Shown one piece after another: positions 5,701 to 24,387 of a stretch of DNA of 24,401 nucleotides. Positions within the stretch are counted from its first letter, which is position 1; each line of letters begins with the position of its first letter. The notes below the pieces were generated by a model. The model made no database searches. It saw nothing but the letters and a program-made list of their open reading frames with translations, and had not been told where the DNA came from. This stretch comes from a virus. The stretch covers positions 1 through 24,401 of IMG/VR virus record IMGVR_UViG_3300032304_000629; one strand, 5' to 3'. The position numbers were made by a program, and so were the translations under genes.

Positions 5701-8700
5701 AGGCCGTAAAGAACCAGAGTACAGCACTTGGTTGTTGGAACAGCAAAAACGTCTACGAAAACTTGAAGCCAGATATGGTGTGGGCGATCCGCAAATTCAA
5801 AAGTTTCAAGAAGACATGCGGTCTGCTATGGTGGACAAGGCTGTTAATCTTGGCAAGAAAACGCCCGAATACAAAGCCACGCTGAAAGAGCAAATCGCGT
5901 ACTTCCAAGAAGTGTTGCCAACGGCGGGCAAGCAAGTAGCCGCGACCAAACGCTCGACACAAGCAACGCGCAAACAAACCACAGCACCCAACCGCCTTGT
6001 TACATCATCGCCCGAGAGCCGTAAAGAAACCGAAGCCGAAGTCTTGCGTGAAAAGCGCCGGATGTTTCGAGATTTCCAAGAAGCCATCAACGACGAAAAG
6101 AACAATACCGCGTACCGCTTGCGTGAAGGCGACACCAGCAAGACTGTTGACCCCGCAGAGGCCCAGAAAGTAATTGACGGCTTGAAGCTGCCAGAGAACG
6201 TCAAGTTTGTGTACGCGCCGACCACAGGCAAGATTCCCGTGCGCCTGCTCAACATGATGGCCGCTGAAGGCGTTGATCCGAACGAAGGCATGGTGCAAGG
6301 CGCTGTGTTTTCTGACGGCACCGTACTGGTTGTTGGAGATCAGCACACAGATGTCACGGACTTGGAAAAGACAATTGCCCACGAGATCATTGGTCACTAC
6401 GGCGTCGATACCGTTATCGGCCTTGACAAACTCAACGCGTACGCCAAGAAGACAGATGTGATTGCTTTGGCGGAACAAATAGGCGGCAAGGGGTTGGTTG
6501 CAGACGTCATGCAGACTGTTCGGGCCAACGCCGCAATGGGTCGCAGCGAAGAAGTCCAGAAGCTCCAAGCCCTGCGCGAGATCATTGCGCACACCGAAGA
6601 AGCACGCGTAACAGAAGCGTTTAGAGAAAAAGCCGGTCGCTGGATGAAAGAGCTGGTTGGCATGGTTCGCGCTGGTCTGCGGGCAATGGGTTTGCAAAAT
6701 GCGGGAGCGCTTTCTACATCTGACGTTTTCTACATGCTCAAGCAGTCTCGCAAAGCGTTTGAGAACAAGACTATTGGCGTGTACCGCGACAAGGCGGGGC
6801 AGATTGCGTTTCGCAGCCGCCGTACCCCCGGTGAGTTTGATGCTGATCCCGAACCGTCCGCAGTAGACACGCTCTTGGGCAACGTCATGGGTTTGGCTGG
6901 GCGCATGCAGCTTGTGGACAAATACGCGGCGGTCTCTCAGGCTTTTAAAACGGGCATGAGCAAAGGCGTGCTGACGGACGTGGAGGCAGGTAACGCCGAG
7001 TTTCTGTTGCGCTTTAGCGAACACCGAAGCCAGTATGCAAATCAGTTCCTTACCAACGGCCCCGTATCGCTGGTCACGACCAAAACAGACAAAGGCGTTG
7101 AGCACACATACAAGAGCACCAAAGGGGCCAACCCGTTGGAGATGGCCGAGGCGCTTAGCAAAGGCGGGTTTGCCAACGACTCCGAAGCTGAAGGCTTGCT
7201 GACACTGGTTACATCCGGTGAACGTGCCAAACAAGTTGGTTGGGAAAAGCTAAACTACTCCGACCCTGCCGGAGCCAAAGCCAAGTACGAACGCGCACTG
7301 GCGCATCTTGAGGCAAACCCCAAGCAGAAAGACGCCATCAAGGAAGCAATGGCGATCTATCAGAAGTTTAACAACGGGCTGATGGACTTTCTTGTACAAG
7401 TCGGTGAGTTGACCGCAGCCAAGGCAGCGGAACTCAAAGCCATTACCTACGTTCCGTTCTACCGTGTGAACGCCAACGGCGAAGTCCAGTTGATGGTTGA
7501 CAAAGAGCGCCCAGTGCGTATTGGCAACATCAAGGACGAGCCGCAGCTTCAGCAGCTTGTTGGCGACAACAAACAGATCATGCCGATCTTTGCCAGCATG
7601 GTGCAGAACACGTTTATGCTGACCAACTTGGGCCTGCGCAATCAGACCGTTAAAGAAACCGCGTTTACGCTGCGCAAGATTGGCATCGCTTCGCGGATTG
7701 GCCAAGGCCCCGGTCCTGCAAGCCCCAACATTGTGCGCTTCAAGAAAAACGGCATGGACATGCACGTTGTGATTGACACCGACATGTACGGCATCCCCGC
7801 CAAGTACATTGTTGAGGGCATGGAGGGTATCAAGACCACCATCCCTGCGGTGGTCAGGTTGCTTGGCATTCCCGCCGACATATTGCGTAAGTTTGTAACC
7901 CGCGCTCCCCCATACGCTATTCGGCAGACAATCCGCGACCCACTCAATGCGTGGTTGACTACCGGCACGGATGCGTTCCCGGTGCTGAGTTCTTTCAAAG
8001 AGCTGGGCAGCATGGTGGCGGGCCGCAGCGAAACCGAGCGCACCCTGATGGAGTCAGGCGCGGTGAGCAGCAACGTCTTCACGGGCGACGAGCGCGACAT
8101 GAGCAAAGTGCTGCGTGAGATTACCTCGGGCAAGGCAGGCTGGACCAAACTGCTGGCCAAAGCGGATGCGTTTGCTTTGCAAGGCGATACGGCGACCCGC
8201 GCTGTGATCTACAAGGACTCGATTGCCAAGGGCATGAGCCACCAGCAAGCGCTGCTCCGTTCTGTGGAGTCAATGAACTTTAGCCGTCGCGGCTTGTCGC
8301 CCAGCATCCAGATGCTGTCTACGATGATTCCGTTCTTCAACGCACAGATTCAAGGTCTGGACGTGTTGTATCGCGCTTTCAAAGGCGACATGTCCTACAA
8401 CGAGCAGCTCAAAATACGCGAGAAACTCTTTCAGCGCGGTATGCTGCTGGCAATCGGCACGATGGCATACGCTGCGGCAATGCAGGACGACGAGGCGTAC
8501 AAACGCGCCAAGCCTGAAGAACGCTACGGTAACTGGTTCGTGTATGTTCCCGGTGTGTCAGAGCCGTTGCGCATCCCGATCCCGTTTGAGTTGGGCTACT
8601 TGTTCAAGGCACTCCCGGAAGCGGTCTACAACTTGGCCGCTGGTGACGAAAAGGCAAGCGATGCGGCCAAAGGTATTGGCAAACTGCTGGGCCAGTCCAA

Positions 8701-9370: not shown

Positions 9371-9524
9371 TGCCGTCACGGATGCCCGCAATAGCGCGGG
9401 CATCTCGGTATCTCAACGCTTGGTTCAGCCCCTTGATGCGCACGGCTTCCGTGTCGAGGCAGGGGACAAAGAACCCCTGTCCCCGCTCAGTCTTTTCCCA
9501 CGGAAACCGAATTGAGTAGCTCAT
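9339..9524 (-). CDS. Small conserved-looking protein at the convergent junction
   Basis: 61 aa, beginning MSYSIRFPWEKTERG with the central motif GFFVPCLDTEA, then a basic helix and a GIIGVWFYRLG tail. The start ATG (9524) has AGAAGGA a few bases upstream. It overlaps the 3' end of the primase-helicase gene by 38 nt and the 3' end of the + strand giant gene by 32 nt. Short phage proteins with an F-F-V-P motif after an acidic or aromatic lead are something I have seen often, but I cannot attach a function. The clean ribosome site, protein-like composition and position at the end of the leftward operon support a real gene. The overlap with coding DNA on both sides is the reason for caution. Confidence 0.62.
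   Translation of the reverse strand: MSYSIRFPWEKTERGQGFFVPCLDTEAVRIKGLNQALRYRDARAIAGIRDGIIGVWFYRLG
9381..9404. other. Perfect 9-bp hairpin in the convergent gene overlap zone
   Basis: GATGCCCGC (9381-9389) and GCGGGCATC (9396-9404) are exact reverse complements around a 6-nt loop, 10 nt after the stop of the giant + strand gene. It could act as a bidirectional terminator between the convergent blocks. However, neither side is followed by a T-run, and on the - strand it lies within a probable 61-aa coding region, where it encodes the DARAIAGIRDG part. The terminator reading is therefore weak. Confidence 0.35.
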
Positions 9525-12423
9525 TGTCCTTCTCAGTAATAAGGCGTGAAATCTTCAGAACCGCCACACGCATCTGGGGGCCACGGGTCTTGGCGGTCAT
9601 GTCCTTCTTGGAGATTTCGGACACCTTGAACAGCGCCCCAAGCTGGCGCTTGAAGTCCGCGTAGCCAAAGCTCATGTTGGCGCAGCAAGCCTTGAGCATA
9701 CTCTGCTCGATGAAGTAGTCAATGTACCCCGGCGTTGCGCCGTGCTCAATGCGCCCCATGATGCGTGATCTGGTGGTCGAGTCATCGACCTCCTTGCCGT
9801 TGCCAAGTTCTGCCAGTACGCGGTTGCCCTCGATATGACGGATGACGATGAAATGCCCGTAATGCTCGCGGGTATAGGCGTTCAGGACATCTTCGGCGCT
9901 ACGGGCGTTGCCTTTGATATTGTTGCGCATGCCGGTGACAATCCCGTGCAGGAACTCGATGATCTTGCCCATCGGTATGTCGATGATACCGGCATGGGTG
10001 CTCGACATGAGGATGCCAGCGCCGACCAGCTCGGCAATACCCGCCATCCAGAAGCGCTCGTCATTGGTGGCGTTGAACTCCTTGTACATGTTCGACACGA
10101 TCTCGGGCACCATTGTCTTGAGCAGCTCGACGTTCTTGGCCATGTACTCGACCAGCATGTGGCCAGCGACTGCGTAGTTGTGCTGCAAGGACTTGACGAT
10201 CTCGATCTCGTGCGGCTCCCATGTCAACGGCTGGTCCATGATGAACTCCAGCAGGCGGCGAAGCTCGCCCTCAGACGCATGGTTGCGGCCCCCAGTGAGC
10301 ATATCCACGGCGTGAGTGTTGGACGACATAATCGCCACGGTCATCCATGTGGACAGGTTCAAGCGCTCTTTATTGGAGCCGGACTCCATACGCTCCTTGC
10401 CACGACCCTCGGTCATGTCCAGCAGGAACTCGGGGAACCACTCGAAGTTGTTGCGGTTCTTGCTGGTGATCTCATCCGTAATCAGCGGGTTGCTGTTGAG
10501 CAGGCCCAAGCGCTGCTGCATGGCTACGGGGGATGTACCCTTGCCTGTGCGGTAGTGTGTGGGGTGGCCCCAAACGGATGCGGCTGCTTCCAGTGCCAGC
10601 GTCTTGCCTGTACCGGACTCGGTTGAGCCGCAGTGGTAGGTCATGCCATAGATACCCGTGAAGCGCATCAGGGGTGCTCCAGCACCGGCAAGCATGACGG
10701 CCAAGTGGGCGTACATCTTCTTGTGGATAAGTAAGTTGATGAATGCACGCCACGCCTCGATGGTGCCGGTTGGTTTGGTGTTCGCCACGATGTTCTCAAG
10801 TCCGGCCATAGGCACGGAGATGGGCGCTGCTGCCTTGCTGTAAATCTTGCCAGCGAAGACGTAGGTATCGTCTTCTTGCCAGCCATAGTTCGATGGCACT
10901 TTAACGGCTGCCTTGCCGGTACTTGCTTGTTCCACGCATGCCCTCACATATTCAAAAAGGTTCTTGTCATTACCAGCGCCGAAAGCGGCGATGATGTTTT
11001 GTTGAGCCAGTGCTTTGACTGTCTCGTCTTTGCTCACCACCGCTCTTTGCGGGATGGTGATTGTTGCTGGGCCTTCCGGCCGCAGCGCTAGCATGTGAAC
11101 AGTGTGTTCACCGCCGCTGTTCAGGATGTCCACCACGAACAGATCGTATGGCAACAACATTACCTGCTTCTTGGTTGTGTTGCCGTCAGCATCTTCCATC
11201 GACTTCTCGGAGAACACGCCGCCCTTGCTGCCGTAGCCGAACCCACGCGGAGGCGTAGGACGCAGCAGTTTCTTGACCTCGGGCGCGATGCTAGGGCTTT
11301 CCGATGGGATAACGATCTCGATCTCTTTCTCAGCCACGTCTACCGCGATCTCACGGCCAAGCGCAAGCGGGTTGGTGATCTTGCCAAAGTGTTGACACCC
11401 GTCACAGCCGCCCGGGTTCTCGCTCTCAAACTTCACGCACGGGTACGGCCCCTTGATCTGCGCCTGCTTCTCACGCATGCGCTGCTCGTCATAGGGATGC
11501 AGCCCACTGAGCCACGCCGCTGCACGCTCGCCGTCCGAACACTTCTGGGCAATGCTCAGCCAGCCACGCCACAAGGGCTCCATGCCGTCCTCTTCGGCGT
11601 TCTCTACGAAGTGCTTGAGCTGAGCGCAGCCGGTGCCGTTCTTGGTCTTCAGGAAGATCGTGCCGAACTTGGTCGTGCTGTTCTCAAACAACTTGGCTCC
11701 GGCCATCGTGGCAGGGACTGCTGGCGCTGCATCTGGGCGCTTCCCCGGCAGACTCAACGCAGACGTTGCCGCTGCTGGAGCCGTCGTAGTTAGCTTGGCT
11801 GCAATGGCTTGGCTGATGGTGTCGAAGTTAAAGCGGTCGCCCTCGGTCAGCAGCTTGACCTGCTTAGGCTCCCCGTACTTCCACGAGCCGTCCTCTTTGT
11901 TCTTCTTGAAGTTGAACGTGTTGGGGATGCGTAGCACCCGTGCAGCGTCTGCTGTCACAGTCATGTCGATGTTGAGCTTTTGCTGCTTGCACAGGCGCTT
12001 CAAGTTCTCGGCAGTGGGCTTCCACACAGCCACATCGATGTCTTCAGTAAACGGCCAGTAGCAGTGCAGCCCACCGCCAGAGAACACAATCCACGGAGCG
12101 CCCAGCGCATCCAAGCCAGTATCGGCAAGGAACGCACCAAGCGCCAGTGCAGCTTGCTTCTTGGAAGCGTAGCCGTCCATGTCGATGAACAGTGACCTGA
12201 TGAAGCGGGAGTTCTCCGCAGTGCGCTTGCCCGATGTCTCGAACGTAGCCAGCGCGAAGTAAACGTCCTGCTGTGCCTCGACCCAGTTGTCTACGGCAGG
12301 GTAAATGTCTTCCAGATTCTCGACATACCGATGCTCTTTCTTTTTTGTGCTCAGTTCCGCCGCGCAGTACAACCCGTTATCCGGGGACGGCAAAACCACC
12401 GCAAGGAATTCAAGCGGGTTCAT
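9487..12423 (-). CDS. Primase-polymerase (AEP type) fused to helicase
   Basis: 978 aa. The N-terminal ~200 residues show the archaeo-eukaryotic primase pattern: metal ligands in FIDMDG (D81, D83), SGGGLH with H120, and DAARVLRIPNTFNFK (159-173). A cysteine cluster (C329, C340, C343, with H345) suggests a zinc-binding linker. The C-terminal half carries Walker A STESGTGKT (600-608) and Walker B PLITDE (646-651), as in D5/SF3-like or DUF927-like helicase ATPases. The predicted role is to prime and unwind DNA at the phage fork, replacing a T7 gp4 type enzyme. ATG 12423 has AAGGAC 5 nt upstream and begins 15 nt after the stop of the small QLDLF protein gene, suggesting coupled expression. The primase and ATPase assignments are firm; the exact helicase superfamily is less sure. 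Confidence 0.9.
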   Translation of the reverse strand: MNPLEFLAVVLPSPDNGLYCAAELSTKKKEHRYVENLEDIYPAVDNWVEAQQDVYFALATFETSGKRTAENSRFIRSLFIDMDGYASKKQAALALGAFLADTGLDALGAPWIVFSGGGLHCYWPFTEDIDVAVWKPTAENLKRLCKQQKLNIDMTVTADAARVLRIPNTFNFKKNKEDGSWKYGEPKQVKLLTEGDRFNFDTISQAIAAKLTTTAPAAATSALSLPGKRPDAAPAVPATMAGAKLFENSTTKFGTIFLKTKNGTGCAQLKHFVENAEEDGMEPLWRGWLSIAQKCSDGERAAAWLSGLHPYDEQRMREKQAQIKGPYPCVKFESENPGGCDGCQHFGKITNPLALGREIAVDVAEKEIEIVIPSESPSIAPEVKKLLRPTPPRGFGYGSKGGVFSEKSMEDADGNTTKKQVMLLPYDLFVVDILNSGGEHTVHMLALRPEGPATITIPQRAVVSKDETVKALAQQNIIAAFGAGNDKNLFEYVRACVEQASTGKAAVKVPSNYGWQEDDTYVFAGKIYSKAAAPISVPMAGLENIVANTKPTGTIEAWRAFINLLIHKKMYAHLAVMLAGAGAPLMRFTGIYGMTYHCGSTESGTGKTLALEAAASVWGHPTHYRTGKGTSPVAMQQRLGLLNSNPLITDEITSKNRNNFEWFPEFLLDMTEGRGKERMESGSNKERLNLSTWMTVAIMSSNTHAVDMLTGGRNHASEGELRRLLEFIMDQPLTWEPHEIEIVKSLQHNYAVAGHMLVEYMAKNVELLKTMVPEIVSNMYKEFNATNDERFWMAGIAELVGAGILMSSTHAGIIDIPMGKIIEFLHGIVTGMRNNIKGNARSAEDVLNAYTREHYGHFIVIRHIEGNRVLAELGNGKEVDDSTTRSRIMGRIEHGATPGYIDYFIEQSMLKACCANMSFGYADFKRQLGALFKVSEISKKDMTAKTRGPQMRVAVLKISRLITEKDNELLNSVSVGKD

Positions 12424-12438: not shown

Positions 12439-12633
12439 TTACGCGAACAGGTCGAGTTGCTTAGGGTCTCGTACTGGATACTCGTCAATCGGGGCGAGGC
12501 GGCAGAAACGGCAATACAACTCAAACTGAAGATTAGCGGGCAGGCCCGCCTCAGTCCACGCGTTGTCGCAAGCCAAGATTAGCTCGCGGTTACTTAGGCT
12601 TGAAGGTTGTAGTGATGACATATTTTTTTCCAT
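12439..12633 (-). CDS. Small protein with C-terminal beta-clamp binding motif QLDLF
   Basis: 64 aa from ATG 12633, or 60 aa from the in-frame ATG at 12621. The first has GAGG only 1-2 nt away; the second has GGAAA at about 7 nt, so the shorter form may be the real one. The body is helical (LSNRELILACDNAWTEAG, then a Cys/Arg-rich segment). The protein ends DPKQLDLFA: QLDLF matches the consensus pentapeptide QL(S/D)LF by which bacterial proteins dock on the DnaN sliding clamp. The gene overlaps the HTH gene upstream and lies directly before the primase-helicase. By inference it either tethers the phage replisome to the host clamp or blocks host use of the clamp. No other domain is recognised. 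Confidence 0.78.
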   Translation of the reverse strand: MEKNMSSLQPSSLSNRELILACDNAWTEAGLPANLQFELYCRFCRLAPIDEYPVRDPKQLDLFA

Positions 12634-12872
12634 GCCTCATCGGCAGAGCGTGAATTTTGAAGGAACTTGAGCAGCGTTTCTACGCGGTGCTCGTACGCAG
12701 GGAAGATGTCTCCACCTGCGAACCAGTTGTATGCGGTCTGGCGTGTAACGCCCAGCGCCTTGGAGATGCGAACGACAGAGAAGTCGTGGTGAACTGCCCA
12801 ACGTCCGAGCTGATTGCCCGGAGTCTTCGGCGCACGCATAACCATGTCGATAGTTTTTTGTGAGTAAGCCAT
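12594..12872 (-). CDS. Small helix-turn-helix DNA-binding protein
   Basis: 92 aa. A helix-turn-helix spans about residues 31-52: FSVVRISKALGVTRQTAYNWF has the typical A-L-G-V-(T/S)-x-x-x-(A/V)-x-x-W pattern of Cro/CI or excisionase-like folds. The rest is helical (YEHRVETLLKFL) and may dimerise. The ATG at 12872 has no strong Shine-Dalgarno. It is the first gene after conserved intergenic element A (12883-12955), which could be its leader or operator. Its overlap with the QLDLF gene suggests they are made together. A regulator of the phage operon, or an origin-binding helper for the downstream primase, are both possible; neither is shown. Confidence 0.8.
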   Translation of the reverse strand: MAYSQKTIDMVMRAPKTPGNQLGRWAVHHDFSVVRISKALGVTRQTAYNWFAGGDIFPAYEHRVETLLKFLQNSRSADEAWKKICHHYNLQA

Positions 12873-13670: not shown

Positions 13671-14657
13671 TTATTCGTCATCCCAGTCGGCAACGACATC
13701 GGCCAGCGCTTTCTTGCCGGGCACAGCCGTTGGCTTTGCCGCTGCTGCCTTCTTCACGACTGGCTCTTCGTCATCTTCGGCTTCTTGCTCGGGAGGGGGC
13801 GCTCCTTTGGCCTTGGCTTTAGCCTTGGTAATCTTGGCTCGCTCAGCCGCAATCGCCGCTTCCTCGTCTTCGTCCATCATCTCGCCCATTGGCCTAGCCT
13901 TCGGTGCTGCACCCTTGAGCGCATCAGCAGGCTTGCCCATGTCCATACCAGTGGAGTCCATCGTGATGGCCTTCTTGGCTTCGGCGGTGTCGCCCTGCTT
14001 GGTGGCTTCAGCGAACTCGTCATCAGTCAACCAGCGCATAGCCTTGAAGAACAGCTTGGGGGACTCGCTGGCAGTGTCGAACTTCATGCGGGTCACAACA
14101 GTGCTCGGGTCAACGCCTTGGGCCACGAGCCAGCGTGCGTACGCTTGCAGTGGGCGGTTGTCGCCTTCGTCCTTACCGAAGATCGAGGTGGCTGGCAGGG
14201 ACAACTGCATCACATCGCCTTCAATGTTGTTGGCCAAGACGACTGCCAAGCGCTGCTGGTAACGGCAAGCGCGGGTATTGCCAGTACCGGAACCGGCTAC
14301 GTTCTGTGGGCAGGAGGCGCAGGTGTCGGACTGCTTGTTCTTGCTCTTGGAGTCTGGCGTGTCGCCATCATTGGACTGACAGTCAGGTGCGGAGGCAGTT
14401 GCGTCCTTGTCGTACTTGGCTGCGTAGAACACACGGGCCACTTTCGGTGCGGCCTTGACAATCACCACATCAAGGAAGCGCTCATCAACGGCTGCGATTT
14501 CTTTGCCATCAGAGATCAGACGGAACACACCGCCTTTGATTGACACACGTTTGCCACTGGCTGCACCACCCGCAAGGGCTTTGGCAATGTCAGACATCTC
14601 GGCCTTGCGTGCGAAGGCGGGTACTTGGGCGGGGTTAAACAGAGCTACATTACTCAT
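13671..14657 (-). CDS. Putative phage ssDNA-binding protein with Cys cluster and acidic tail
   Basis: 328 aa. The N-terminal half is beta-rich and holds four cysteines (C93, C113, C116, C131) in a C-x19-C-x2-C-x14-C array that may bind zinc, followed by RLAVVLANNIEGDVMQLSLP. The C-terminal ~110 residues are Ala/Lys/Glu-rich and disordered, ending DVVADWDDE. An acidic tail with an aromatic residue is the hallmark of replicative ssDNA-binding proteins (T7 gp2.5, bacterial SSB), which use it to contact polymerase and helicase. I recall phage proteins with this Cys pattern being annotated as ssDNA-binding. The start at 14657 has only a weak purine run (AAGAAAGAAG). It sits between a helical protein and the primase region, fitting a replisome role. 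Confidence 0.72.
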   Translation of the reverse strand: MSNVALFNPAQVPAFARKAEMSDIAKALAGGAASGKRVSIKGGVFRLISDGKEIAAVDERFLDVVIVKAAPKVARVFYAAKYDKDATASAPDCQSNDGDTPDSKSKNKQSDTCASCPQNVAGSGTGNTRACRYQQRLAVVLANNIEGDVMQLSLPATSIFGKDEGDNRPLQAYARWLVAQGVDPSTVVTRMKFDTASESPKLFFKAMRWLTDDEFAEATKQGDTAEAKKAITMDSTGMDMGKPADALKGAAPKARPMGEMMDEDEEAAIAAERAKITKAKAKAKGAPPPEQEAEDDEEPVVKKAAAAKPTAVPGKKALADVVADWDDE

Positions 14658-18159: not shown

Positions 18160-18165
18160 CTCCTT
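18160..18165 (-). promoter_or_regulatory. Ribosome binding site that decides a GTG start
   Basis: AAGGAG on the - strand, overlapping the stop codon of the DNA polymerase gene and spaced 8 nt from the GTG at 18151. It favours the 73-aa product over the ATG-initiated 84-aa reading. Confidence 0.7.
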
Positions 18166-20135
18166 TAATTTTTAGCCAAGCCATAACGCTTGTGTGCGCC
18201 TCCGTCAGCGGCCAGTGGTATGCCCGGCATGTACTTCGGCTCCATAGTCATCTGCGCCAAAACCCATGTCTTAGCGTCAGCAACGTCCTCATCAGGCACA
18301 ACAGCAATCTGCTCGTCATGCACGGTTCCAGCCACGAAGTACCTCTTCGCGGTTCTCAGCATCCCATCAGTCATCACGCATCTCGCTACGCCCTGCGTGA
18401 CATTGTTGGTTATTTTTCCTGCATACAGTTTAGTCTCATCTGCGCCGTATGTCCACTGCAACCTGCCTTTTTCGTCTTTCCCCGGTTTCAGGTCAGGATA
18501 TAGCAGGCTCATGCCAGAAGGCAGCACGATCTCGCCCTTCTTGAAGGTCACGCACTTGTGGGTGTACTCCTTGCCTTCGTACAGGCTGTACTGGATCAGG
18601 TGCCCGAACATGTTCCACAGCGCCACCACAGGCTCGGCAGTCAGGCGGTACTTGTCGATGATGGCCTTGGCCGCGAGACAGTGGATGACCAGCTCCGTCA
18701 TGGTGCAGATGTGCGGTATCTCTTCGAGCTTCTTGAGGTTGTCATCCCAGTCCAAGAACTTCTCGGCGGTCTCGGCGGTCACCCCCAGCGTCTTGGCAAA
18801 CTCCTTGGTGTAGCGCACGGGTGGAGCACCGAGGAAACCGACGAGTAGCTGAGCGGCAAACGAAGCCCAACCGAGACCGTACCCGCATCCAAGTAAAGCT
18901 GACTTCGCAGACTGGCGAAGGTCGGGATGAGACTCTTTCGTAAGGCCCGGGATATTGAACATCTGCGCCCCGAAGGCCGCGTAAGGGTCACCACCTCCTT
19001 TGAAAATGTTGAGCATATTTTCGTAATCCGCCAGCCATGCGAGAACTCGCGGCTCAATCTGAGATAAGTCCCCAACGACCAGCGTGCTGCCTTGGGGAGC
19101 CATAATTGCTTTGCGTAGGAACGAGCCTCGTTTGAGGTTTTGCATATTGATGGCGCTGCCTTTGCTGGCCGTCCACCTACCCGTGCTGGCCCCGTAATAG
19201 CTAAGAGGAACTGGTAACGCGCCGCGTCTGCTGATGTCAAGAAAGCGCTGAGCCCGCGTCCTTTCCGTCGTTGACTTAACTGCCAGACGCGCTTCGCAGA
19301 GTAATGAGACATCCTCGTTTTCGCCATTAAGTAGCGCTTGAAACATCGCATCGTTTTTTGCCAAGGCAAGGGTGCTTTTGCCCGTCGTCTTACTAGTCTT
19401 TCTTGGCGCTGGTATGCCAAGCGCTTCAAGCGCGGCTGCAAACTTTGGGTTCGACGCGAGCACAGCTTCGTCCACGCCGAGCCGGTGTAGTAGTTGTTCA
19501 CGTTTTTCCTTTTCTTCATGTAGTGCATCGACCAACATAGCACTGTCAAGTTGTAGCACCGGGTTCGTGTACATCTTGAGCGTCATGTCTATAAGCCTAA
19601 GTTCCTTCGCTGGGTAGCCTCGTGATAGCCGTTGGAAGATTTGTTCGCATAGATATACGTCGTGTTTGCAATACTCTGCAAGTTCATGTTCCATGTTCGC
19701 GTCCAGCTCGGCCAGACCATCGGTACTGTATACGGCGGTCCCTTTGGCGGGAAGACCAAAAGCTGCTGCAAGTCGGGCGAGACTGTTGCCAACCTCAACG
19801 CCACGCAAAGCTCGCGCCATTGACAGGGTATCGAAGATGAAACAGGGGTGGGTGTCGTACTCCCATCCAAGGATGGATACGTCGAACTGTGCGTTATGAG
19901 CAAGGATGGCGGTTCGTCCCCAGTCGTACTGCTGAAGGTACTCAGATAGGTCTCGTCCTCGTACCCACTCAATTGGCTCATCGCTTCCGTATACATGGAC
20001 GCAAGCTCCGAACGCGTGGAATCTCTCATGGCGTATGTACTCCTCGGTTGTCATCATGGACAGTGAGTAGCCGGTCTTGCGGTCCCACACTGTCTCAAAG
20101 TCAATGCTTACTATCTGGTCGTAGGGGGCGCTCAA
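18165..20135 (-). CDS. Family A DNA polymerase with 3'-5' exonuclease
   Basis: 656 aa. Exonuclease motifs: D12-F-E14, AHNAQFD (N81, D85) and YCKHD (D159). Polymerase motif A DLSQIEPRVLA (D356, E361), motif B RQSAKSALLGCGYG (R407, K411, Y419) and motif C HDE (606-608) are all intact, so both activities should work. The residue equivalent to E. coli Pol I F762 is Leu415. The exonuclease-to-motif-A distance (about 197 residues) is roughly 100 shorter than in T7 gp5, so the thioredoxin-binding insertion seems absent, whereas the segment between motifs B and C is longer. The start is TTG 20135, chosen for the AAGGAG 8 nt before it and the overlap with the upstream stop. This is the replicative polymerase of the phage. 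Confidence 0.95.
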   Translation of the reverse strand: MSAPYDQIVSIDFETVWDRKTGYSLSMMTTEEYIRHERFHAFGACVHVYGSDEPIEWVRGRDLSEYLQQYDWGRTAILAHNAQFDVSILGWEYDTHPCFIFDTLSMARALRGVEVGNSLARLAAAFGLPAKGTAVYSTDGLAELDANMEHELAEYCKHDVYLCEQIFQRLSRGYPAKELRLIDMTLKMYTNPVLQLDSAMLVDALHEEKEKREQLLHRLGVDEAVLASNPKFAAALEALGIPAPRKTSKTTGKSTLALAKNDAMFQALLNGENEDVSLLCEARLAVKSTTERTRAQRFLDISRRGALPVPLSYYGASTGRWTASKGSAINMQNLKRGSFLRKAIMAPQGSTLVVGDLSQIEPRVLAWLADYENMLNIFKGGGDPYAAFGAQMFNIPGLTKESHPDLRQSAKSALLGCGYGLGWASFAAQLLVGFLGAPPVRYTKEFAKTLGVTAETAEKFLDWDDNLKKLEEIPHICTMTELVIHCLAAKAIIDKYRLTAEPVVALWNMFGHLIQYSLYEGKEYTHKCVTFKKGEIVLPSGMSLLYPDLKPGKDEKGRLQWTYGADETKLYAGKITNNVTQGVARCVMTDGMLRTAKRYFVAGTVHDEQIAVVPDEDVADAKTWVLAQMTMEPKYMPGIPLAADGGAHKRYGLAKN

Positions 20136-22464: not shown

Positions 22465-22598
22465 AGGCGGGTGCTCTTCTTTAAGTCGGGTGATGTCTCT
22501 CCATCAGTCACGCATTTGCCGCTCGCGTTCAGCGCACTTACCGACTCGTGAGGCAATCCGTAAAAATCCTCGTTGTCGGCTGCAACTTGTATTGTCAT
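22461..22598 (-). CDS. Tiny unknown protein (45 aa)
   Basis: 45 aa: MTIQVAADNEDFYGLPHES at the start and KKSTRL at the end. It is acidic and Ser/Asn-rich with no hydrophobic segment. Support comes from position: ATG 22598 overlaps the upstream stop (ATGA), AAGGAGAAG stands 5-8 nt upstream, and the stop overlaps the GIY-YIG start (ATGA). It fills what would otherwise be the only gap in this part of the operon. Function unknown. Confidence 0.65.
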   Translation of the reverse strand: MTIQVAADNEDFYGLPHESVSALNASGKCVTDGETSPDLKKSTRL

Positions 22599-22619
22599 GT
22601 GTTCTTCTCCTTGAGTTTG
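22594..22619 (-). repeat. Gene-junction repeat (copy 1 of the 26-nt form)
   Basis: These 26 nt are identical to 24048-24073. On the - strand they encode the last residues of the upstream protein (KLKEKNT), the Shine-Dalgarno AAGGAG and the ATGAC start of the next gene. A 17-nt core (ending in GGAGAAGAACACATGAC on the - strand) also occurs at 22830-22846, and shortened forms occur at 23375, 23656 and 23876. Confidence 0.85.
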
Positions 22620-22834
22620 TTGTTTATGTTCTCGTATGTTCTCCGCAGTGACACCTCCATACTGCCCACATGCTTGGTCCCGTTCTTGTCGATGTACGGC
22701 GGGTCATACGCAAAGCCTTTGAACACGGTGCATTCCATAAGCTCCGCATCCGTCAGCCCAACCCACTTCTCGCAGTTGTGTACGCTTTTAAGCCCCATTG
22801 CGTTGGCTACGGCTCGGTCAAGCGCGGCGGTCAT
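22595..22834 (-). CDS. Small WVGLTD-family protein
   Basis: 79 aa from ATG 22834, chosen because GGAGAAGAACAC precedes it; an ATG 30 nt further upstream lies within the previous gene and lacks a site. The motif EKWVGLTDAEL (about residues 23-33) recurs in two other small genes to the right. The end KLKEKNT is shared with the 112-aa protein. The central FAYDPPYIDKNG and C-terminal helix complete it. No catalytic residues are evident. Small W-x-G-L-T-D proteins are frequent in phage early regions, with unknown role. Confidence 0.8.
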   Translation of the reverse strand: MTAALDRAVANAMGLKSVHNCEKWVGLTDAELMECTVFKGFAYDPPYIDKNGTKHVGSMEVSLRRTYENINNKLKEKNT

Positions 22835-23199
22835 GTGTTCTTCTCCGGTCTTTGTTCGTAGCAACTCATCCCCATAAAGTCATCGGGGTGGAACAGTAAG
22901 TTGGGCATAGTTTGGCACTCGCCCCGTAACATGCCATCTTTTCTTGGCTCATGCTTTACGCGAACAAGATGCTTGCAGGTATTGCAGTTAGCCTCGCTCT
23001 CGTCAAAACTGCGCTTGGACTTCTTAAAGAATGGCAGTGCAGTCGGGTGGCACACGTATGTACCGTTGACCTGTGGTACGCATGCCCCCAAGAAGATGGC
23101 CTCTTCCCGCGACACTCTCAGCCCCGTGTACTGGCATGTGTACAACCCTTCAGCGTCAGGCTCGTTGAGTATGGGCTTGCCGTTCGGTGCTCGTATCAT
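22831..23199 (-). CDS. Cys-rich small protein, putative zinc binding
   Basis: 122 aa from ATG 23199, which has AAGGAG 5-6 nt upstream. An in-frame extension to 23397 exists, but it would overlap two other genes and is rejected. The N-terminal half has CQYTGLRVSREEAIFLGAC. The C-terminal half has CNTCKHLVRVKHEPR, then GEC and FHPDDFMGMSC, a four-cysteine C-x2-C...C...C pattern seen in small phage proteins that likely bind zinc. Its end (PEKNT) and ATGA overlap repeat the local junction pattern. Function unknown. Confidence 0.8.
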   Translation of the reverse strand: MIRAPNGKPILNEPDAEGLYTCQYTGLRVSREEAIFLGACVPQVNGTYVCHPTALPFFKKSKRSFDESEANCNTCKHLVRVKHEPRKDGMLRGECQTMPNLLFHPDDFMGMSCYEQRPEKNT

Positions 23200-23656: not shown

Positions 23657-23876
23657 GTGTTCTCCTTTGTTTAATATGCGGCACACTCTCGTGGTCGGGC
23701 CAGTGGTCGAGCAGGACTCGGCAACACCTGTCACACAAGCCGTCATGGTTATGCCGCCCTTCATGTGTGTAGTGCCAGCACCGTGGGCATTTGATGTAGT
23801 CCGGATTGTTAACCAGCGACAACACCACACAGGTAGGTTGAGGACACAGCAGCGCTTCGTACTGCGCGTCAGTCAT
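23631..23876 (-). CDS. Small zinc-finger protein resembling the IleRS/FPG finger
   Basis: 81 aa. KCPRCWHYTHEGRHNHDGLC followed by DRCC gives C30-x2-C33...C48-x2-C51. The C-x-R-C-W and L-C-x-R-C arrangement is that of the C-terminal zinc finger of isoleucyl-tRNA synthetase and Fpg/Nei glycosylases. A further pair, CPQPTC (11-16), lies upstream. The tail is basic (IKQRRTHESATQKR). Nucleic-acid binding is likely; no enzyme domain is attached. ATG 23876 overlaps the previous stop as ATGA, and GGGAG precedes it. Its end overlaps the next gene by 26 nt. Confidence 0.78.
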   Translation of the reverse strand: MTDAQYEALLCPQPTCVVLSLVNNPDYIKCPRCWHYTHEGRHNHDGLCDRCCRVLLDHWPDHESVPHIKQRRTHESATQKR

Positions 23877-24052
23877 GTGTTCAACTCCCTCAACTTAGCT
23901 TGCAACGCTCGTCCAAACACCACTTGCCCGTAAGGCATTGCCGAACCCCTGTGTATTGCAACGGTCTTGTAGTAGATTTCTTCTATCTGTGAGTCACTCA
24001 GGTTTACCCACGGCTTCTTGTAGACCTGTGTGTCATCGTCATCGTCAGTCAT
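23873..24052 (-). CDS. Small acidic WVNLSD-family protein (59 aa)
   Basis: 59 aa. It begins MTDDDDDTQVYKKPWVNLSD, continues with an amphipathic helix (SQIEEIYYKTVAI) and GSAMPYGQVVFG, and ends LQAKLRELNT. The W-V-x-L-(T/S)-D core and the K-L-(K/R)-E-x-N-T end match the 112-aa and 79-aa neighbours, so the three look paralogous. ATG 24052 has AAGGAGAAGAACAC before it and overlaps the upstream stop as ATGA; the stop overlaps the next gene as ATGA. Function unknown. Confidence 0.78.
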   Translation of the reverse strand: MTDDDDDTQVYKKPWVNLSDSQIEEIYYKTVAIHRGSAMPYGQVVFGRALQAKLRELNT

Positions 24053-24073
24053 GTGTTCTTCTCCTTGAGTTTG
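24048..24073 (-). repeat. Gene-junction repeat (copy 2 of the 26-nt form)
   Basis: Identical over 26 nt to 22594-22619; it joins the 112-aa and 59-aa WVxL(T/S)D genes. It holds upstream C-terminus, ribosome site and downstream start together. Confidence 0.85.
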
Positions 24074-24387
24074 GCTTCGATGGCTTTTGTGTGGCTCTGC
24101 AATAAACTTCGGCCTTCCACAATCTGCACACTTTCTCGGATTTGCAACATATCATCATCCGTCAGCCCTACCCACGGATGTGCCACAGACCATTTGAGGT
24201 TGGCAACTTTCAGTTGGCCTAACAGGTCGTATGCCTGCTCTTCCAAGTCCTTGCACCGCGCACACTCTGGCCCTTGCTCTGGCAACTCAGACTTCATCTT
24301 GCGAATCCAGTGCTGAACAGGGCGGTCTTCACGGCACTGATCGAAGTGTTGTTGGGCCAGCCAATCAAGTGTTTGCTCTGGTGTCAT
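24049..24387 (-). CDS. Small WVGLTD-family protein with coiled coil (112 aa)
   Basis: 112 aa, complete at its start: ATG 24387 has AGGAGG 4-5 nt upstream at the window edge. The N-terminus MTPEQTLDWLAQQHFDQ, a CARC pair (about 41-44), a coiled-coil helix (KDLEEQAYDLLGQLKVANLK), then AHPWVGLTDDDM and the shared C-terminus KAIEAKLKEKNT. The WVGLTD core is typical of a group of unassigned phage early proteins. It is the first gene of the leftward operon seen here; any promoter lies beyond the window. Confidence 0.82.
   Translation of the reverse strand: MTPEQTLDWLAQQHFDQCREDRPVQHWIRKMKSELPEQGPECARCKDLEEQAYDLLGQLKVANLKWSVAHPWVGLTDDDMLQIRESVQIVEGRSLLQSHTKAIEAKLKEKNT

Follow-up and report, generated by a model that had tools for sequence, protein, structure and literature searches.

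The window analysed here is the whole 24,401-nucleotide stretch of the viral record IMGVR_UViG_3300032304_000629. An HTH protein, a small protein and a primase-helicase are encoded in succession on one strand, and a family-A DNA polymerase is encoded on the same strand further along. The features considered below, in window coordinates, are the following.

12594..12872, minus strand: HTH protein, 92 aa (Pfam HTH_23, E=7.5e-4, under the curated cut-off)
12439-12633, minus strand: longer form of the small protein, 64 aa, starting at the first ATG (12633)
12439..12621, minus strand: small protein gene, 60 aa, with the second ATG as the likelier start; stop codon at 12439-12441
12559..12591, minus strand: predicted helix 1, residues 11-21 (AlphaFold2 model md2f01762b8a4)
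12496..12537, minus strand: predicted helix 2, residues 29-42 (same model)
12460..12495, minus strand: linker from hairpin to motif, of low conservation (identity 0.34) and of a length that varies between relatives
12445..12459, minus strand: codons of the C-terminal clamp-binding motif QLDLF, residues 55-59 of 60, a predicted clamp ligand
9487..12423, minus strand: primase-helicase (DUF927; PF06048, E=3.6e-22; PHROG primase/helicase, E=1.3e-28)
18165..20135, minus strand: family-A DNA polymerase with 3'-5' exonuclease, 656 aa, with no insertion between the predicted thumb helices

The earlier note on this DNA had described an open reading frame ending in QLDLFA and tied to the primase-helicase. 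The frame was recovered at 12439-12633 on the minus strand, with the product MEKNMSSLQPSSLSNRELILACDNAWTEAGLPANLQFELYCRFCRLAPIDEYPVRDPKQLDLFA, and its tight place within the primase-helicase gene unit was confirmed. Its stop codon is separated from the primase ATG by a gap of 15 nt containing AAGGA; in most relatives this gap measures 14-18 nt, and the primase lies downstream wherever the locus extends that far. On the other side, the HTH gene, which is the upstream neighbour in relatives too, shares 28 nt with the start of the small gene.

This overlap bears on the choice of start codon. The second ATG (12621) is invariant in 130 distinct relatives, most of which present GGAG or GGAA 6-7 nt 5' of it, and the first start codon may be ATG, TTG, CTG or GTG, a variation that is expected anyway from the wobble base that lies ahead of a Trp codon conserved in the HTH frame. 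In the HTH frame, the codon from which the second ATG takes its A has A as its last base in every case (114 ATA, 10 ACA, 3 GCA, 2 CTA and 1 GTA), and ATA accounts for merely 102 of the 579 Ile codons in the rest of the HTH gene. The invariance of the second ATG, the A-ending codon and the variable first start thus make the second ATG the more likely true start, giving a protein of 60 aa.

Other parts of the window also presented features of note. The 328-aa protein encoded at 13671-14657 (minus strand), which may be a single-strand DNA-binding protein, has an acidic C-terminus (..VVADWDDE), and its positional counterpart in Pseudomonas phage Rollin has the end ..FAGWDD. Three otherwise different small open reading frames (22595-22864, 23873-24052 and 24049-24387, minus strand) have in common a stretch resembling WV.L[TS]D and an end resembling KL[KR]E.NT, outlining a repeated module.

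Chance occurrence of the QLDLF tail is ruled out. The probability of QL[SD]LF falling within the last 6 residues was estimated at ~2.6e-6 from composition, shuffled tails presented QL.LF in the last 12 residues at 6e-5 per protein, and QL.LF was absent from that position in all 1,201 other gene calls from 13 related genomes and the window. Ligands of the bacterial clamp follow the rule Q-phi-x-[L/M]-[F/L] or Q-phi-x-[L/M]-x-[F/L], in which Gln, L/M at position 4 and F/L at position 5 or 6 are important, position 2 is tolerant, position 3 is nearly free and QLxLF is the strongest form (PMC11139829).

Relatives were initially collected by a first search (20 relatives) and a profile search (best 80 of 123), and QL[DE]LF was invariant in those fetched by the first searches, for which one of two search patterns held the motif. 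Since that pattern contained the motif itself, loci were fetched again through the flanking HTH protein and primase-helicase, yielding a motif-independent set of 160 loci in which the adjoining open reading frame was read; as the best 80 matches of each search were taken, this sample favours the nearer relatives of the window. Among the matches listed, all 160 loci present a small open reading frame beside the HTH or primase-helicase gene, and the 104 distinct proteins they encode divide into 70 ending in QLxLF, 12 in QxxLF, 2 in QLxLPL and 20 without a tail. With the first set included, the 130 distinct proteins comprise 96, 12, 2 and 20, respectively. The C-terminal QLxLF, whose invariance across homologues the earlier note had put forward for checking, is hence not invariant. 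Loss of the pentapeptide with the body kept, which it had held to speak against a clamp-binding role, was indeed found in those 20 proteins, and a Q..LF or QL.LPL ending nevertheless stands in the other 84 of the 104 (motif-independent loci, among the matches listed). The motif is upheld by selection in most clades and absent in three or four, and on a tree of the HTH protein and primase the tail-less state needs four changes and is clustered.

Comparison of the 110 tailed members revealed a pattern that closely follows the published rule. Q1 and L4 are present in all of them and F5 in 98%, the remaining two being the six-residue forms QLKLPL and QLELPL, both within the rule. Position 2 is Leu in 89%, position 3 varies with a preference for Asp or Glu (Asp in 68%), and an Asp lies three residues upstream in 88%. 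No single loss at position 1, 4 or 5 was seen, so that the tail is either of the clamp type or absent. Among the 12 QxxLF variants, nine have a non-aliphatic residue (R, K, G or P) at position 2, and these are predicted to bind the clamp weakly. Codons within the motif vary synonymously (Gln CAA 51/CAG 57; five codons for Leu4; Phe TTT 20/TTC 88), indicating that the protein sequence is the conserved level. Mean pairwise identity reaches 0.86 in the motif, partly by construction because the rows were chosen by Q..LF, compared with 0.47 for the hairpin, 0.34 for the linker, 0.69 for the neighbouring HTH protein and 0.63 for the start of the primase. The aligned sequences hence indicate that the tail is kept by selection while the linker drifts, and the proposal that QLDLF represents the clamp-binding consensus was upheld: it is C-terminal, under strong selection and in agreement with the published rule.

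The AlphaFold2 model divides the protein into a helical hairpin (block pLDDT 93-94) and an extended linker and tail (69-75), placing the motif, in the last 6 residues, beyond the predicted helices in an accessible segment. Residues E13, E34 and R38 show little or no variation across 77 aligned members. No fold match for the hairpin was identified in the PDB, and the best profile-versus-PDB matches (9hnh_A, E=0.004; COE1/COE3; MafG) were rejected as short helical coincidences. The hairpin body occurs without the tail in 20 distinct proteins among the matches listed, and its persistence there suggests that the hairpin has a job of its own, as the docking part of an adaptor would.

Several loci further illustrate this modularity. 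The small protein of locus L172, which ends in QLKLPL, is 86% identical in the shared part to that of the tail-less L168, and their HTH proteins are 100% identical. At L158, a body without recognisable similarity carries the tail DPRQMRLFD. The small gene of L175 (2252-2431) is nearest to the clade of the window (58%) and was seemingly exchanged, its HTH protein being 98% and its primase mostly 77-88% identical to those of the clade of L165, L168, L171 and L172. Taken together, these loci indicate that body and tail are separable both ways, and the mismatch at L175 argues against tight co-evolution of the small gene with the HTH and primase genes.

Searches for described members of this family did not return any. 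Relatives of the small protein were detected neither in annotated phages (INPHARED, tblastn with four different members) nor in the bacterial genomes of GTDB, no Pfam or PHROG assignment was obtained for the window protein, with merely scattered weak matches among 77 members, and the open-access full-text literature on the motif strings and on phage clamp-binding proteins described no such protein. In phage Rollin, a cultured distant relative, an HTH-like open reading frame is followed directly by the primase and the small gene is absent. The small proteins thus form a family of uncultivated phages without known annotation that, to judge by their sequence, putatively works as clamp-binding-motif proteins.

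The T7-type thioredoxin-binding insertion comprises about 76 residues and lies between thumb helices H and H1. The earlier note had held that the window polymerase appears to lack it, and this was borne out by an alignment with Taq polymerase, in which gaps across the thumb span a few residues at most, and by a model of moderate confidence (mean pLDDT 69) in which the predicted helices 198-219 and 223-238 are adjacent. No DnaN-type clamp (PF00712, PF02768) was detected above the cut-off in 22 related records, many of them incomplete, with positive controls. The idea that tail-less phages possess a DnaN of their own found no support in the profile search, which gave one sub-threshold match of 40 positions in genome G005. 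The polymerases of the tail-less clades and of the window nevertheless share 68-75% identity, which implies that the clamp link is not obligatory for the processivity of this polymerase family and chiefly limits the processivity argument of the earlier note. As read from these sequences, the link is dispensable in some lineages.

The possibility that other replication proteins of the tail-less phages had gained a C-terminal QL.LF was rejected, as none was seen in the gene calls of five tail-less genomes, where one small uncalled open reading frame (G002) has one. Tail-less relatives also encode a second family of open reading frames of ~50-60 aa (L391, L404, L405 and their relatives L392-L403; G002:C1 about 8411-8563) with variable C-termini, some clamp-like (KQLRLFHL, KQQQLPLFHQ, QQCLPLSHQ) and others not. 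Tails with QLRLF or QLPLF occur on this family in the tail-less G002 and G040, and the motif may possibly have moved onto it; a relative in the tail-less G001 is without the motif, and relocation is therefore not established.

Two further observations concern larger proteins. The family-A polymerase of G011 (IMGVR_UViG_3300046357_000001, the record of L049; G011:C1:45362-48217) is a 956-aa open frame with an in-frame insertion of ~860 bp at about residue 417, probably an intein. A conserved protein of ~820-865 aa (e.g. G008:C1:13108-15573, minus strand), placed outside the replication genes, presents an internal QVSMF at ~residue 210 in most genomes read.

The pattern of the tail suggests that it very probably binds host DnaN. 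The interpretation we favour, with middling confidence, is that of a two-module adaptor. Its helical hairpin (residues ~1-44) would dock on a phage partner from the same gene unit, with the primase-helicase, the HTH protein or the polymerase as candidates, and a flexible linker of variable length would present QLDLF to the beta clamp of the host, where the motif would occupy the hydrophobic groove. In this way the phage replisome, for which no DnaN-type clamp was detected, would be attached to host clamps loaded on primed DNA; the hairpin's phage partner and the consequence for replication are both what we infer within this adaptor reading. We favour it because it explains why the hairpin is conserved and persists without a tail, why the gene keeps its position in the replication unit and why the linker varies. 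In its favour we count the pattern of the tail, the QLxLPL form, the lack of half-decayed tails, the synteny of 160 loci and the failure to find a DnaN; against it, the 20 tail-less proteins among 104, the non-aliphatic residue in nine of 12 QxxLF variants, the hairpin without a structural match and the seeming exchange at L175.

The adaptor is preferred over an inhibitor of host replication, a less probable but live reading that we rank next. The tail would here fill the DnaN groove and displace host Pol III and other clients, stopping host replication, and the hairpin would merely stabilise the peptide or make a dimer. A QLDLF tail alone can suffice for such an effect, since the peptide MGPRQLDLF is growth-inhibitory to E. 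coli when overexpressed (PMC11139829), and QLxLF is the form of highest affinity. Loss of the tail in some clades readily fits a non-essential host-takeover function, and the small gene, which seems to have been exchanged in L175, has diverged faster than the genes beside it. Fast evolution and exchange are frequent in host-facing genes. The small gene is, however, no variable accessory, being fixed in the replication unit at every sampled locus, and persistence of the hairpin without the tail is unexpected for a pure inhibitor. Twort gp168, the known phage inhibitor of the clamp, moreover uses the DNA channel rather than the peptide groove (PMC11139829).

It is improbable that the tail addresses a phage or host protein other than DnaN through a similar hydrophobic groove, the match to the motif being convergent. 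Clamp ligands seldom have the Arg, Lys, Gly or Pro that some variants carry at position 2, and DnaN binding is itself something we infer; the full match to the rule, including QLxLPL, the Asp or Glu at position 3 and the upstream Asp would then nonetheless be coincidence. Slightly more remote still is a factor acting in the manner of T4 gp33, in which the hairpin would bind either the HTH protein or the host RNA polymerase and the tail would bind the clamp, coupling transcription to replication. The anatomy is that of T4 gp33 and gp55, with a small body, a flexible linker and a C-terminal clamp motif (PMC2988020), and the HTH gene is directly adjacent with overlapping reading frames, but the small gene adjoins the primase as much as the HTH gene and no sequence or structural similarity to an RNA polymerase binding domain was found.

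Known systems offer partial parallels to the favoured adaptor. As in Pol IV, Pol II, UmuC, Hda and DnaE, a QLxLF- or QLxLPL-type motif sits in a terminal or flexible segment with the same tolerance per position, but in contrast to these bacterial proteins it is borne by a phage-encoded 44-residue hairpin of no known kin, with no polymerase, AAA+ or repair domain. T4 gp33 is likewise a small phage protein with a C-terminal clamp motif on a flexible linker that acts on another machine, although gp33 and gp55 bind T4's own clamp gp45 and the host RNA polymerase, use a different hydrophobic-acidic motif and have no sequence relation to the proteins described here. The plasmid initiator TrfA of RK2 needs its own clamp motif for recruitment of the host clamp (PMC4980987) and so represents a selfish replicon with a host-type motif, as would be the case here if clamp recruitment takes place; TrfA is, however, an origin-binding initiator bearing the motif, whereas here the motif lies on a separate small protein. 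Gp168 of Staphylococcus phage Twort is also aimed at the host clamp, as predicted here, but takes the DNA channel and blocks loading, whereas the peptide groove is proposed for the small protein. Finally, T7 gp5 with host thioredoxin is a phage family-A polymerase aided by a host protein, as proposed here, with the difference that the window polymerase has no insertion between the thumb helices and that its proposed helper is the clamp.

For phages with a family-A polymerase, the usual view is that they rely on a thioredoxin-type helper, on intrinsic processivity or on a clamp of their own. We tentatively suggest that the small protein is a stand-alone, detachable phage clamp adaptor through which clamp-less phages with such a polymerase and a primase-helicase of their own borrow the host clamp, one that can be lost, replaced by a hexapeptide form and possibly relocated. 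If the adaptor reading is true, it would explain a protein family without annotation, and attachment of the replisome to the host clamp by way of a separate tether of 60 residues would represent a further solution to processivity. If the protein is instead an inhibitor, it would be a naturally occurring counterpart, encoded by a gene, of the QLDLF peptides under study as antibacterial leads. Tailed, hexapeptide-tailed and tail-less members all occur in nature and offer ready-made comparisons.
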